From positions 3,025,168-3,089,167 of the forward strand of contig NZ_CP009528.1 of assembly GCF_000970025.1 (NCBI RefSeq): a stretch of 64,000 nucleotides of DNA. The letters are read 5' to 3'. Each line of letters starts with the position of its first letter. Positions within the stretch are counted from its first letter, which is position 1. The notes below the pieces were generated by a model. That model ran no database searches. It saw only the letters and a list, made by a program, of their open reading frames with translations, and was not told the DNA's origin. The position numbers were made by a program, and so were the translations under genes. This document shows, piece after piece, positions 586 through 7,700 of the stretch. Origin of the DNA: Methanosarcina barkeri MS. GTDB lineage: Archaea > Halobacteriota > Methanosarcinia > Methanosarcinales > Methanosarcinaceae.

Positions 586-3251
586 TTAGTTCTGAGATTG
601 ATTTTTATTATTAGGGATAACAAGAAAAAAGCATTTTCCTTTTAATTCTTCAATTTTACGTTCATCAAGCTTCTGAATATGTTTGTTTGTTAAAGGAGAG
701 AATTGTTTTATTAGGGAAGTTTCAATATCATCTGTTTTTTTCTTAATACTTCCCCTTTCTCTTATAAGCATGCATTTCAATTCATTATGATCATTACAGG
801 AATTTATTCTGTTAATCAGTTCCACAAATTCCCTGCCTTTTTCTTTTAATTTATCGAGAATTTCAGCTTCTTCAAAAATGTGGATGAGCTTTAAGGTTAT
901 TGGCTCCTGACCTGTCTGAGTATCCCTTGATGTATTAAAATCCGTATTCATTGACATTATATAGACAAATTGTTCCATTACGCCGTCAACTGGCTCTATG
1001 ACGGTTTCATTCTCCCCAAGTTTTGAATATGAGTGCTTGTCAAGTGTTAAAGCAACTCCTGTAGACCCTCCATATATTGTTTTTTATCATTTCCCCAGGT
1101 ATAGATTCCATTTACCATAATGTGTGCCCGGTTTCCAGCACAAAGCTGGATATTAAGTTCACTGTTTGCTTTTCTATAAAATATCTTTGGAGATGGATTT
1201 GTCTGAGGCACAAGGATTACGTCGCAGGCACGTATCAAACGCTTTCTCAACTCATCATTCACATACTCATAACAGATCATAATCCCTATTCGAAGGTCTT
1301 CTCTAAGTTTGAGAATGTGGTTCACTTCACCTGCTTCCATACCTTCCTCAAAACCGCATCCTCTTTCATCCCTTGCTGCCAGCGCTTTTTCATTGTGAAC
1401 GATTTTAGAATCAGGAATCACAATAGGAGAGATATTTTTCCGTAAATCTTCGTCTCCAAACTCGCGGGTGAACAGTTTTCCGTACTTCATAAGGTTCTTT
1501 TCCTGAACATAATAGCTGCCTGCAACAACAATAATTCCATTTTCATCGGTGTACTGCTGTATTTCTTCAAGATATTCAAAAGGTATGGAAAACTCAGGGA
1601 ATACCACAATATCGGCTTTTTCCTTCACAGCTTCAAGAATTGCCATTACTTTCCTGTAATAAGTCTCATCAGCCGTAAGTTTTACAATGGAATCTTCTCC
1701 ATAAGCATGATATTTCAATTGCACAGCCGCAATCCGTAAATTAGAGCCTTCAAAAGAGTTGTTGCAGCAGTCATGCTGTAATATCCGAATTTTCTTATTT
1801 CCGGGTATATTTTCAAAATAGTCAATTGACCTTATGACTGGTTTTTTCTGCCCTCTTACACTGAAAGTAATTTCGTCTTTTCCTTCCGGGAAATACTTTT
1901 TCTCAAGATAATCGATTTCAAGAATATTGTTTTCTCTTTCTTCGGAGGTAAGGAATTTGTTAAAAAGAGTTCTGCTCCCTGCTTTAATTGTTAACTTACC
2001 TTTTACTTTTTCAGGGTCATCAAAGATAATTTTAAGTTTCCAGTTTTCGTAGATCAGCTTGATAGGATTGAAAGGCTCTTCAAAATAGTCTTTTGTTCTC
2101 CTGTGAATATACTCGAAAAGGCTTTCAAGGGGCCTGTATTCAATTGAATTAATTTTTTCCAGAAAATCAAAAAGAAGTTTATCCCTGGTTTTACAATCTT
2201 TTTCTTCAAAAATCTGTGGGAGGTCCTTAAATGAAGCGCAGATACTTGGATTAACATCATCAGACAGAGTTATGATAACCTCCTCTACAACCTTCTTTAA
2301 TCTTGGCACATCAACTTTTCAGATTTTTCAATTTCCGTCAGGACTTCAAACAGCGCAGTATAGACGCAATAGCAAACGTTTGCTTTTTCATAAGTTTCAG
2401 TTGCTTTTTTAAACTGTTCTATTGCCTGATTGAGCAGCTCCAGATCAGGCTGCTTTGAAGAAAGTGCTTCGTTTACAAGTTTTCTCCAGAAAGGTAATAT
2501 GAGGTAGAATCACAGAGTTTTGAAATAGCCTCGTCTTTTTCAACAGATTTTAACTCTTCTACTGCTTTTATAGCTTTTTCATATTCACCTGCACGTTTTC
2601 CTGTATTGGACTCAGCTCTAATGTTCTTGAGCAGAAAGTCAATATATGCACTCAGCCCTGCCCCAGTAACCAGTTCTCTTTCGTGCTTTAGCTCATATTT
2701 AATAAAAAAATCCTGATATTTTTTGCACAGCTCGACTGCTTCTTTCAGGCATCTCATCTGATTATATTGATTGCCTTTTTTTGCCTGTTCTGTATTTAAC
2801 TCAATAAGCTTCATTATCGAATGGGATTTTCTACCTATCGTCATGTATTGCAAAGGTTCGGTGTAGATTTCGAGTGCGTTTTCATACCTTTGTTTAGCCT
2901 CTTCAATACGCCCCATATTAGAAAGTAAGGCACCTAAATTGTTCAGTGTTGTTCCTACGTAAGATTGATAAGATACGTTATCGGGGTCGGTTCCGAGGAG
3001 GATTTGCCTAATTTCGAGTGCCTTTTCGTACCTTTGTTTAGCCTCTTCAATACGCCCCATATCAGTAATGCCTGCATTAGATGTCCTTTTAAAGTCTGAA
3101 CATAAAGAAAAATATCAATTTCTTTCGCCTGGCCTGCGGCTTCTTCGGCTTTTTCAAGTGCTTTTAAAGCTTCCTTGTTCTGACCTTTTTGCATTAGCTC
3201 TAAAGCTTCATTATAGGAACTTATTGCTGAATCTCTCAAACTCTCCAACAT
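586..3251 (-). pseudogene. Degenerate TPR-nitrilase fusion gene with four frame breaks
   Basis: Read from 3251 downward, this is one ancestral gene in five reading-frame segments. The first (from ATG 3251) and second (to 2473) carry TPR helices, including two copies of a GRIEEAKQRYEKALEI-like repeat. The third runs from about 2478 to 2300 and is only a short bridging helix. The fourth (2309-1047) is a carbon-nitrogen hydrolase domain with the nitrilase Glu (VVFPEFS) and Cys (MICYEY) motifs. The fifth (about 1075-586) supplies the rest of that domain and a Glu/Lys-rich tail. Breaks lie near 3071 (CC), 2480-2483 (TTTT), 2315-2318 (TTTT) and 1076-1078 (CCC). At each, adding back one base of the run restores a smooth protein sequence. 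All four shifts have the same phase. The piece at 1047-2309 could still be translated from a GTG, but without its N-terminus and C-terminus. Sequencing error in homopolymers is the main alternative to true decay. Confidence 0.75.
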
Positions 3252-3366
3252 AATAAAAAAATAAGTTAAGGATGGCTTAAACATTGTGTTTTTTTTCTCG
3301 ATGGAGTTACAGCAAAAAGCGTGAGAATAAAGATTATTTGCTTTTCTTTCTTTGCATACTTGGAAA

Positions 3367-3409
3367 AGCCGCGCCATGGGCGCGTGGACAAATTCGACCT
3401 CAGGCGGCT
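3367..3409. other. GC-rich nested hairpin in a gene-free spacer
   Basis: The spacer between the broken TPR-nitrilase gene and the membrane-protein gene (about 3252-3692) holds one GC-rich spot in otherwise AT-rich DNA. CGCGCC at 3370-3375 and GGCGCG at 3379-3384 form a tight 6-bp hairpin. AGCCGC at 3367-3372 can alternatively pair with GCGGCT at 3404-3409. No promoter or T-run makes it a convincing RNA gene. Nothing else is visible in this spacer. Confidence 0.3.
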
Positions 3410-3692
3410 GACTACAGCTGCTATGGATTAGATTTTAAACCGCTTGATTTCTTCCCACTTGAAATGGAGTTATTTTATTTTTGCACTCAGGGTCTTTTTA
3501 TTCAGGTATTAGGAATCTCATTTTAACCCACATTTTTAATAATTTGATAGTTATTGACTTCTAAAGAGGGTATTTGGGAAAAGGTAAATAATGTGAATAG
3601 AGAAATGAAATAAGAATAAGATTGAGATTCGGGGGAAGGGTAGAATCGAGATTCCTGAGTTTAGAAAAAAAGAAAAGATATACCTACTGCTT

Positions 3693-4031
3693 GTGAGCAT
3701 CTTTCTCGCAGCTATCCTCTGTTATACCTTCTATATCGGACAGCTTCTCTGGGGCATAGTTATTGATGTTCTCATTCTGAGGCTTTATTTCCTCATGAAA
3801 AGGGAAAAGAGTTACTTCAGGGAGTGTTCCCTGGATGAAAAAGAAGCAGGAACTCCGCTAGATCCCCAAATAAAAAAGAGATTTCGGCTTGCAAACATTC
3901 TTATTACTCTCTTCGTGCTTGGACTGATTATTTACTCGTACTTTACTTATCAGTTTCTCTCAGGGATCGTTGCAGGCCTGCTGATTTTGCTTTATATACA
4001 CATGCTGCTGTTTTCGAAGGAGAAACTGTAA
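3693..4031 (+). CDS. Small membrane protein made of two LonB-type transmembrane hairpins
   Basis: About 112 residues with four predicted membrane segments in two hairpins. Each hairpin resembles the membrane insert of the LonB protease encoded 1.6 kb downstream. The second half has IIYSYFTYQFLSGIVAG where LonB has IIYSYFVGQLLWGIIAG, and the first half has CYTFYIGQLLWGIVID. There is no AAA or protease domain. The start is unclear: GTG 3693 falls inside the first membrane segment, while the frame is open back to 3609. A purine-rich stretch, GGGGGAAGGG, lies at 3631-3640, but no ATG, GTG or TTG follows it in frame. The true N-terminus may therefore lie upstream with a rare start codon, or may be lost. 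A role in membrane localisation or regulation of LonB is inference. Confidence 0.6.
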   Translation: MSIFLAAILCYTFYIGQLLWGIVIDVLILRLYFLMKREKSYFRECSLDEKEAGTPLDPQIKKRFRLANILITLFVLGLIIYSYFTYQFLSGIVAGLLILLYIHMLLFSKEKL

Positions 4032-4141: not shown

Positions 4142-5062
4142 TTAAAGCTTTTCCGGATTTTCCGAATTATCCGGATTCAGGTTTTCCGTATTCTCCAGTT
4201 TTTCCAGTTTTTCCTGTTCCGGTTTTTCTGGGTTCTCCAAGGTTTCCTGTTCTTCCAGCTTTCCCAGAGTTTCTGACTTTTCCTGCTCTTCCAGAGTTTC
4301 CAGTTTTTCAAGCCTTTCCCGGGTCAAAGCGATAGCTTCTTGAATATTCCTATCTTCTGGCTGCTGAGCGAGAATATTTTCCTGCATGGCGAGGGCTTTT
4401 TCAAGGCTTTGTTTTGCCGTATCAGATTTTTCAGGGCCCTGCTGGATAAGGCAGTTTCCAAGCTGGCTGAGCGCAACCGCGAGTTCGGCCTGATAGCCCG
4501 GGTTGTCGGGCTTTTCTTCAAGCAGCTTTCCATAAAGCTCAATCACCTGACTGAGAATTTCGCCTGCTTCCTCAAAAGAACCCATGTCCGTAAGGAGAGC
4601 TGCATAATTGTTCAGGTTCTCACCGGCAGCAGATCTAAAGACTACGTTTTCAGGTTCTTTCGCCAGAAGATTTATATAGATCTCTCGGGCCCGAGTGTAA
4701 TATTCGACAGCTTGCGGCTTTTCACCTTTACTTTTTAGCAGGTTCCCGGTATTGCTCAGGGTTGTGCCCATATAGTGCTGGTAGTCGTGATTTTCAGGAT
4801 TAACTTTAAGAAGTTCTGAACCTGCATCAATCGCCTTTTCGTAGGTCTCGAGAGCTTCATCATATTTTGCCTCAGTATAATAGATGCCCCCGCGCATAAA
4901 CAGAATATAATATACTGCGTCAGTTGCTTTCGCTTTTCTTGCAGAATCTTCGGCTTTGCTTAAGGTTTCAAGAGCTTTATCCAGCTTGCCTTTTTTTATC
5001 TGGGTTACTGCACTGTGAATTTGCTTCAGAAGGAGAAGATTTCTGACCTTGCCTCTGGACAT
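4142..5062 (-). CDS. TPR protein with Glu/Lys-rich tail
   Basis: A 306-residue cytoplasmic protein without a signal peptide. Residues from about 10 to 230 form successive 34-residue TPR helices, with YDEALETYEKAI and AVEYYTRAREIYINLL typical of the A and B helices. Residues from about 240 to the end are a low-complexity Glu/Leu/Lys tail with repeated EKLE and ETLE blocks, probably a coiled coil or disordered arm. TPR proteins are scaffolds, and the partner is unknown. Its N-terminal architecture resembles that of the broken TPR-nitrilase gene at 586-3251, so the two are likely paralogous over this domain. It is transcribed divergently from lonB across a 540-bp spacer. Confidence 0.8.
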   Translation of the reverse strand: MSRGKVRNLLLLKQIHSAVTQIKKGKLDKALETLSKAEDSARKAKATDAVYYILFMRGGIYYTEAKYDEALETYEKAIDAGSELLKVNPENHDYQHYMGTTLSNTGNLLKSKGEKPQAVEYYTRAREIYINLLAKEPENVVFRSAAGENLNNYAALLTDMGSFEEAGEILSQVIELYGKLLEEKPDNPGYQAELAVALSQLGNCLIQQGPEKSDTAKQSLEKALAMQENILAQQPEDRNIQEAIALTRERLEKLETLEEQEKSETLGKLEEQETLENPEKPEQEKLEKLENTENLNPDNSENPEKL

Positions 5063-5572: not shown

Positions 5573-5603
5573 ATTGAATAACGTTCGAATATGTGAGCTA
5601 ACC

Positions 5604-7700
5604 ATGGTGTATAATAATAATCAGAACATAGGCGAGTCTTCGGGGAAGATAGACGAACCCGCTGAAAATATAGGCGAGTCCGTTCAGGACGGAGACACGT
5701 CTGCGGCCGATCAGAAGAAGGAGGAGTCCGGTGGGGGTATGACCGAGCCCGAATCCAATCAGGTTAAGGCCGAGTCTGAGTCAGATCAGGATACGTATGA
5801 AGACGTTGACATCGGCTTTTCATTTGACAATACTTCTAATATAGATGTACCCAAACTTCTTATCGACCAAGTGCTGGGTCAGGAACATGCCGTCGAAGTC
5901 GTAAAAAAAGCGGCCGGTCAGAGACGGCATATCATGATGATAGGAACCCCAGGAACAGGGAAATCTCTGCTTGCAAAAGCAATGGCAGAACTTCTTCCAA
6001 AAGAAGAGCTAAAGGATATTCTTGTATATCCTAATATGGAAGACCTTAACAATCCTAAAATAAGGGAAGTTCCCGCCGGAAAGGGCAGAGAAATCGTCAT
6101 GGCTCACAAGATGGAGGCCAGAAAGAAAGCTCAGGCCAGAAATATGCTCATGATGCTTTTTGTTGTGGGCATTATCATCTACTCTTATTTTGTTGGTCAA
6201 TTACTCTGGGGCATTATTGCAGGCATTATGATTCTCATGCTAACTCGCCAGTTCTTGCCTAAAGAAGAAATGATGATCCCGAAACTGGCGGTTTCAAATT
6301 ATGACAAAGAGCATGCACCTTATATCGACGCAACAGGAGCTCACGCAGGAGCTCTGCTTGGAGATGTAAGGCACGACCCATTCCAGTCCGGCGGGCTTGA
6401 AACTCCTGCTCACGACAGAGTAGAGGCTGGAGATATCCACAAGGCCCACAAAGGTGTGCTCTTTATTGACGAAATCAACACTCTCAAACTGGAATCCCAG
6501 CAGAGCCTCCTGACTGCACTTCAGGAAAGGGAATACCCAATTACCGGGCAGTCTGAGAGAAGTTCAGGAGCTCTTGTTAAGACCGAGCCTGTACCCTGCG
6601 ATTTTATTATGGTATCTGCAGGAAACCTCGACGCCGTGCAGAAGATGCACCCTGCGCTCAGGTCAAGAATAAAAGGTTACGGCTACGAAGTTTACATGCA
6701 GGATTCTATGGAAGATACTCCTGAGAACCGGAAGAAAATGGTTCGTTTCGTTGCCCAGGAAGTTGTTCGGGACGGGCATATTCCTCACTTTGATGAAGGT
6801 GCAGTGGAAGAAGTAATTCGGGAAGCTAGAAGACGGGCAGGCAGGAAAGGGCACCTTACCCTGAAGCTTCGTGACCTTGGCGGACTTGTACGCGTAGCAG
6901 GAGACATTGCCCATTCCGAAGGTGCTCCATTAACAACCGCTGAGCACGTACTTGCAGCAAAAAGAATCGCAAGATCTATTGAACAGCAGCTTGCAGATAG
7001 TTATCTAGAAAACCGCAAAGATTACGAATCCTTCCTTAGAAAAGGTTCTGCTGTGGGCAGGGTCAACGGACTTGCAGTCATGGGTGGAGATTCAGGAATT
7101 GTACTTCCCATAGTATCCGAAGTCACCCCTGCACTTTCCGGAGCCGAAGGGCGTATTATAGCAACGGGTAAGCTTAAAATGATTGCGAAGGAAGCAGTGT
7201 TAAATGTCTCTGCCGTGATTAAAAACATGACAGGCACGGACATATCCAGACATGATGTTCATATCCAGTTTGTAGGGACCTACGAAGGTGTCGAAGGAGA
7301 CAGTGCATCAGTTTCCATTGCAACAGCCGTCATATCTGCCATTGAGAAGATTCCTGTAGACCAGACCGTGGCAATGACAGGTTCCCTTTCAGTCAGGGGA
7401 GATGTCCTGCCTGTAGGTGGAGTTACCTATAAAATTGAAGCTGCAGCCCGGGCAGGCATTAAGAAAGTAATTATCCCCAAAGCAAACGAGGCAGATGTCC
7501 TTATCGAAAAGGCGTACAAAGAGAAAATTCAGATCATTCCTGTCTCCTCTATTGCGGAAGTAATGGAACACAGTCTTGTAGGTCCGAAAAAAAACTCAAT
7601 TATCGAAAAATTGCGAAACATTACAAAACTCAGCTTCGATATTCCTGAGGTATCACCTGCTTCCGTGCAGGCTAAGAACCTTTTTGGATGCAGGAACTGA
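5604..7700 (+). CDS. lonB: Membrane-anchored ATP-dependent protease LonB
   Basis: Archaeal LonB, 698 residues from ATG 5604. An in-frame TTG at 5574 would add ten residues. The protein has an acidic, low-complexity N-terminus of about 75 residues. It is followed by an AAA domain with Walker A GTPGTGKS (about 114-121) and Walker B VLFIDEIN (about 285-292). A two-helix membrane insert lies within the AAA module at about 180-215. The C-terminal S16 protease domain has the catalytic Ser in GDSAS (about 567) and Lys in GGVTYK (about 610), forming the Ser-Lys dyad. LonB degrades damaged and regulatory proteins at the inner face of the membrane in hexameric rings. The tldD start follows two bases after its stop, so co-transcription is likely. 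The membrane insert is echoed in the small protein at 3693-4031. Confidence 0.97.
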   Translation: MVYNNNQNIGESSGKIDEPAENIGESVQDGDTSAADQKKEESGGGMTEPESNQVKAESESDQDTYEDVDIGFSFDNTSNIDVPKLLIDQVLGQEHAVEVVKKAAGQRRHIMMIGTPGTGKSLLAKAMAELLPKEELKDILVYPNMEDLNNPKIREVPAGKGREIVMAHKMEARKKAQARNMLMMLFVVGIIIYSYFVGQLLWGIIAGIMILMLTRQFLPKEEMMIPKLAVSNYDKEHAPYIDATGAHAGALLGDVRHDPFQSGGLETPAHDRVEAGDIHKAHKGVLFIDEINTLKLESQQSLLTALQEREYPITGQSERSSGALVKTEPVPCDFIMVSAGNLDAVQKMHPALRSRIKGYGYEVYMQDSMEDTPENRKKMVRFVAQEVVRDGHIPHFDEGAVEEVIREARRRAGRKGHLTLKLRDLGGLVRVAGDIAHSEGAPLTTAEHVLAAKRIARSIEQQLADSYLENRKDYESFLRKGSAVGRVNGLAVMGGDSGIVLPIVSEVTPALSGAEGRIIATGKLKMIAKEAVLNVSAVIKNMTGTDISRHDVHIQFVGTYEGVEGDSASVSIATAVISAIEKIPVDQTVAMTGSLSVRGDVLPVGGVTYKIEAAARAGIKKVIIPKANEADVLIEKAYKEKIQIIPVSSIAEVMEHSLVGPKKNSIIEKLRNITKLSFDIPEVSPASVQAKNLFGCRN

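Follow-up and report, generated by a model that had tools for sequence, protein, structure and literature searches.

DBL, a lineage-restricted Methanosarcina membrane protein family with two hairpins homologous to the LonB membrane insert

A small gene located upstream of lonB in Methanosarcina barkeri MS codes for a protein with two hydrophobic segments, both of which are homologous to the membrane insert of the LonB protease. The gene lies in a stretch of 64,000 nucleotides (NZ_CP009528.1, positions 3,025,168 to 3,089,167; hereafter the window, to whose numbering coordinates refer unless another locus is given), in which an open reading frame of 112 codons could be confirmed that runs from a GTG to a TAA at positions 3693-4031 of the forward strand. 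We refer to the family of this reading frame as DBL, for double LonB-type hairpin, and conclude that it is a genuine, undescribed and lineage-restricted family of membrane proteins. DBL may work with the LonB protease.

Results

The two hairpins of DBL are encoded at positions 3678-3797 (+; hairpin 1, IYLLLVSIFLAAILCYTFYIGQLLWGIVIDVLILRLYFLM) and 3888-4013 (+; hairpin 2, RLANILITLFVLGLIIYSYFTYQFLSGIVAGLLILLYIHMLLF). The lonB gene is located at 5604-7700 (+), with an ATG at 5604 and a reading frame that reaches up to a TTG at 5574 (Lon_C, 1e-32; LonB_AAA-LID, 1.7e-7), and the closest solved structures of its product are 3k1j and 4zpx. The transmembrane insert of LonB (MLMMLFVVGIIIYSYFVGQLLWGIIAGIMILMLTRQFL, 6144-6257, +) lies between Walker A and Walker B. 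In an earlier interpretation of the same DNA, the sequence-only reading, it had been proposed that both hairpins match this insert by shared IIYSYF and GQLLWGI blocks and that lonB is only 1.6 kb away, and both statements are borne out. The GQLLWGI block is found in hairpin 1, within IGQLLWGIVID, and the IIYSYF block in hairpin 2, within LGLIIYSYFTYQF; the LonB insert carries the two together, in IIIYSYFVGQLLWGII, and the lonB start is located 1.57 kb past the DBL stop codon. In profile-profile alignments with hhalign, hairpin 1 and hairpin 2 matched the LonB insert with scores of 59.6 (E 6.6e-13) and 70.6 (E 2.1e-15), respectively, and the score between the two hairpins (46.8) was lower than that of either hairpin with LonB. 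Transmembrane segments are of low complexity, and one might therefore attribute the similarity to a chance convergence of hydrophobic segments. However, when alignment columns were permuted within hydrophobic and polar classes, which keeps the hydrophobic pattern, none of the 150 shuffles per hairpin was as good as the real alignment (maximum score 29), and reversed profiles scored around 15. In the window's own genome, a single DBL sequence finds LonB at E 7e-9, and a profile built from 24 DBL sequences retrieved, from the whole genome at E<=0.05, only DBL (1.9e-66), LonB (3.7e-11) and one more hairpin protein (7e-4). As the top matches of the family profile are thus hairpin proteins only and neither shuffled nor reversed profiles approach the real score, we regard chance convergence as extremely improbable.

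The hairpin had also been described as unique to LonB, and this part of the sequence-only reading has to be given up, as at least four further kinds of protein also carry the hairpin. The M. barkeri genome itself encodes a 174-aa protein (L081:632-1156, +; C2:4382337), in which one LonB-type hairpin precedes a C-terminal domain that has no Pfam match and looks OB-like, and homologues of this protein are present in several Methanosarcinaceae. In other Methanosarcinaceae, the hairpin is followed by a PLDc_N (1.9e-7) or a Yip1 (2e-13) domain, or makes up ORFs of 77-88 aa on its own. The PLDc_N and Yip1 fusions (L121-L129 and L118, genera g3 and g4) occur in several copies per genome and are unlinked to lonB, and DBL is the only non-LonB hairpin protein for which such a linkage was seen. 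In a score matrix, LonB formed the hub of hairpin similarity. The YSFY-type LonB of other genera was the best or an equal match for hairpin 1 as well as for the OB-type, PLDc_N-type and small hairpins, whereas hairpin 2 was closest to YSYF-type LonB (score 76 versus 65 for other LonBs), a type that was encountered in no genera other than the three DBL carriers, namely Methanosarcina and its two sister genera. Because LonB hairpins are present throughout the class and the other hairpin proteins are patchy, LonB is the likely source of the hairpin; this counts against the word unique but makes the derivation of DBL from LonB more credible. As a separate observation, the LonB hairpin has changed from YSFY to YSYF in the same three genera that carry DBL, which may be a coincidence since these genera share one ancestor.

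Intact DBL genes were identified in 24 of 31 Methanosarcina genomes. The gene is frameshifted in G019, reduced to a fragment in G025 and missing in G011, G017 and G018 even though the flank is present; two genomes with a contig edge at the locus (G005 and G013) were counted as undecidable. DBL is also encoded in all four genomes of the sister genus g21 and in one of two genomes of the sister genus g2, the second of which ends in a contig edge, and a search of 186 genomes of the order did not reveal it in any other genus. The sequence-only reading had named a lack of similar genes in relatives as refuting it, and this does not apply, as intact copies were found in 29 genomes from three genera. 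In all 29, DBL lies upstream of lonB on the same strand, with 2-4.6 kb between the matches, and the gene order zf-like gene, DBL, TPR gene (reverse), lonB, tldD and pmbA is kept wherever the contig reaches, up to the g2 copy of DBL with an identity of 57%. We searched for relatives of DBL in NCBIfam, which holds no such family, in Pfam, which gave no match above the cut-off (a RAMP match, 0.005, was dismissed as falling below it), and among solved structures, where none was present. No viral relatives were found, and PHROG returned only weak unassigned matches.

The lonB tree, in which some internal nodes are weakly supported, suggests that DBL arose beside lonB before Methanosarcina and the two sister genera diverged from their shared ancestor and was then lost on several separate occasions, which makes it a conserved but dispensable gene. 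In the case of G017, homology to the sister genome G002 ends inside the TPR gene and DBL is gone. A transposase-like remnant at this site (L088:3060-3740) also cuts the 3' end of the TPR gene. The LonB insert of G017 is nearly identical to that of G002, in which DBL was kept. A connection between changes in the LonB turn and the loss of DBL was considered and rejected, since G002 shares the changed turn of G017 yet retains DBL. In the window, a TPR and nitrilase-like gene is located upstream of DBL (586-3434, -); it is split into four overlapping frames and thus a pseudogene in this strain, whereas its counterparts in relatives (L042, L035 and L038) are single ORFs of 980-1471 aa.

The TPR gene between DBL and lonB (4142-5062, -) is convergent with the former, divergent from the latter and conserved with both. 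Its product could be the actual partner of DBL, which might for instance serve as its membrane docking site rather than act with LonB. In accordance with this idea, the TPR gene adjoins DBL in every examined carrier, including the g2 copy, and is absent beside the lonB gene of g3. On the other hand, it was kept in G017 and G025, which have no intact DBL, the two genes converge and are hence not co-transcribed, and TPR paralogues are common in the region. We therefore think it quite unlikely that the TPR protein is the partner.

The decayed copies in G019 and G025 and the several losses would also fit the proposal of the sequence-only reading that DBL is a relic of duplication, that is, a non-functional remnant of a duplicated LonB insert. 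The selection data speak against this: the core codons of DBL have a pN/pS of 0.26 (bootstrap 0.19-0.33) across the 13 species of the window's clade, and the N-terminal extension described below has one of 0.33, values that differ from neutrality, and broken frames are confined to the two genomes just named. Due to this purifying selection and the presence of intact genes in 29 genomes of three genera, DBL is not a relic, and we give this possibility very little weight.

We also examined where translation of DBL begins. The frame of the 3693-4031 ORF is open from position 3609, after a TGA at 3606, and contains no ATG, GTG or TTG between this stop codon and 3693. In the 13 clade species, codons -19 to -1 in front of GTG3693 have a pN/pS of 0.33 (0.18-0.55) in frame, versus 0.90 and 1.12 in the other two frames. 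The upstream 14-19 codons are hence selected as protein, and DBL is longer than the 112 residues that it had been credited with; an ORF of this size is present but does not represent the full protein. In relatives, DBL has a standard start further upstream, which follows a Shine-Dalgarno site: the start is an ATG behind a site such as AGGGGGGTCAGC in a clade that we take to be M. acetivorans-like, and a GTG behind GGGAAATCCAGC in g21. In the window's clade, the frame of the old upstream GTG is closed by a stop three to six codons later, or the GTG has changed to GTT, and a standard start upstream of the selected codons is gone in 10 of 13 species. We also considered that translation might begin at the upstream GTG and undergo a programmed frameshift, but rejected this because the GTG frame of G021 and G002 ends after only three codons.

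A Shine-Dalgarno-like sequence, GGGGGAAGGG (3631-3640, +), is found at the same position and, in most of the 13 species, gives the best match to the anti-Shine-Dalgarno sequence. It is followed after 4-9 nt by codon 3645, which is AUC in 12 species and AUA in one. Based on this spacing and on the presence of AUC in 12 species, initiation at AUC is the best-supported reading, and DBL translation in the window's clade most likely begins at AUC3645. The proposed coding sequence (3645-4031, +), of which the 3693-4031 ORF is the 3' part, would yield a protein of 128 aa. The lack of a canonical in-frame start, the coding constraint upstream and a Shine-Dalgarno site at proper spacing are the features of a near-cognate start, and all three are seen here. 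An alternative near-cognate AUU (3651-3653, +) follows the G5 tract after 15 nt and is thus less well placed. It is also conceivable that translation starts at GTG3693, giving a protein of 112 aa preceded by a conserved leader; 12 of the 13 species have GTG at this position and the remaining one has ATG, compared with mostly GTT, GTA, ATT or ATC in species with an upstream start. As the preceding codons evolve as protein in this frame only, no Shine-Dalgarno site is present in front of GTG3693 and the first helix would be cut short, we consider a start at this codon unlikely. Non-ATG starts are frequent among the unannotated small ORFs of M. mazei, of which only 56% start with ATG (PMC11456600). 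The sequence-only reading was thus correct in stating that a clear start codon is missing, inasmuch as no canonical one is present, but this does not imply that the gene is silent, given that the upstream codons evolve as protein and that related clades have standard Shine-Dalgarno sites with ATG or GTG starts.

Each segment of DBL consists of approximately 40 hydrophobic residues with basic residues flanking on the N-terminal side. From the homology to LonB and from hydropathy, we infer that each forms a two-helix hairpin and that both ends of DBL would be cytosolic, as for the two-helix insert of LonB. AlphaFold2 predicted two long helices for DBL with low confidence (pLDDT 74, pTM 0.42) and did not resolve the hairpins; no fold match to this low-confidence model was found in the PDB. 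For LonB, a shallow alignment gave a model with a pLDDT of 36. Residues that are invariant among DBL sequences include Q31, W34, G35, L41, L43 and R44 in hairpin 1 and R79, N82, Y97, Q101 and H117 in hairpin 2. The hairpins are connected by a conserved and predicted cytosolic linker with the motif E..AGTPxDP (3837-3866, +), in which E63, G67, D71 and P72 are invariant. Residues Asp39 (23 of 24 DBL sequences) and Arg44 (24 of 24), encoded at 3765-3782 (+), lie inside helix 2 of hairpin 1; at the corresponding positions, LonB carries A/G/V and M/L/I/V, respectively. Similarly, His117, which is present in all 24 sequences and located inside helix 4, has no counterpart in LonB. Given these three residues that are specific to it, DBL is not simply a copy of the LonB anchor.

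Discussion

The ATP-dependent protease LonB is bound to the membrane, has broad roles in archaea and is essential in Haloferax (PMC9263693), and in the literature searched we found no description of a dedicated membrane partner. DBL is not itself a member of the LonB protease family, as the two defining domains are absent: at 112-146 aa, it contains no AAA+ module with Walker A and B motifs, has no Pfam or NCBIfam match to AAA or Lon, and lacks the C-terminal S16 protease domain for which lonB itself gives the Lon_C match. We propose, as a tentative working model that falls somewhat short of being probable, that DBL is a working small membrane protein that is accessory to LonB and packs against it. 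The protein, with a length of about 128 aa here and about 146 aa where relatives have a standard start, would cross the membrane with four helices formed by two LonB-anchor hairpins, so that its two termini and the conserved linker face the cytosol. Its hairpins would most likely lie laterally against the ring that the LonB hexamer forms in the membrane, making DBL an accessory or modulating subunit, and the Asp39/Arg44 pair together with the cytosolic linker might provide a role that the LonB insert does not have. A contact with LonB is favoured by the descent of the hairpins, by the linkage to lonB that is exclusive to DBL among the hairpin proteins and by the similarity of hairpin 2 to the LonB type of its own genera. 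It is disfavoured by the separate transcription unit that the gene order indicates, with the convergent TPR gene lying between DBL and lonB, by losses that left no trace in LonB, and by the DBL-specific charged residues.

Alternatively, DBL could be an independent four-helix membrane protein, made of a two-helix module that is able to spread, and be functionally unconnected to LonB; its position would then reflect inherited gene order. We rank this possibility second, only slightly behind the accessory model and ahead of a partnership with the TPR protein. The hairpin also occurs alone or with OB-like, PLDc_N or Yip1 domains in proteins that are not linked to lonB and might therefore be a general membrane module; the charged residues are specific to DBL; and DBL was lost without a visible change in LonB. 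The synteny with lonB may be plain vertical inheritance. Against an independent protein, DBL alone is linked to lonB, in 29 of 29 carriers, and it is the local LonB type that hairpin 2 resembles most. In the boldest version of the LonB accessory model, DBL would be a dedicated mimic of the LonB anchor, which inserts into or caps the transmembrane ring and thereby tunes the protease, and would be the first such protein in archaea, with a conserved AUC start in one Methanosarcina clade; in this full form, we consider it doubtful.

DBL is a concrete candidate for a LonB partner, which can be tested in the genetically tractable Methanosarcina. In addition, the transmembrane hairpin behaves as a transferable domain with LonB at its centre, and the loss of an ATG or GTG start from a gene with an N-terminus that is still under selection provides a clean natural case for archaeal non-AUG initiation.

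In archaeal LonB (MEROPS S16 LonB), the transmembrane insert consists of two helices within the AAA+ module (PMC4864567, PMC9263693), and both DBL hairpins are of this type. Like the insert, they possess the turn-region motif Y-[ST]-[YF]..Q-L-L-W-G-I as well as basic residues ahead of the first helix. In contrast to LonB, DBL has neither AAA+ nor protease domain and contains tandem hairpins joined by a conserved linker; unlike the insert, it has Asp and Arg residues within helix 2 and a His residue within helix 4, and it evolves faster. Small proteins that bind membrane complexes have been described in M. mazei, namely sP36, which acts on AmtB1 (PMC10714827), and MtrI, which binds Mtr (PMC12774963). 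DBL resembles both in being small, lineage-restricted and proposed to act on a membrane complex, but sP36 and MtrI are not derived from part of their target, and the target of DBL is putative. The OB-like, PLDc_N (PF13396) and Yip1 (PF04893) fusions share the hairpin module with DBL (E 1e-7 to 1e-14 per genome) and differ from it in having only one hairpin, other partner domains and no linkage to lonB. A small membrane modulator of a membrane AAA+ protease is known in SpoVM, which acts with FtsH. The mode proposed for DBL is similar in that a small protein of the membrane would act on an AAA+ protease that is anchored there, whereas the two proteins are unrelated in sequence, the protease is a different one and DBL would mimic the protease's own anchor.
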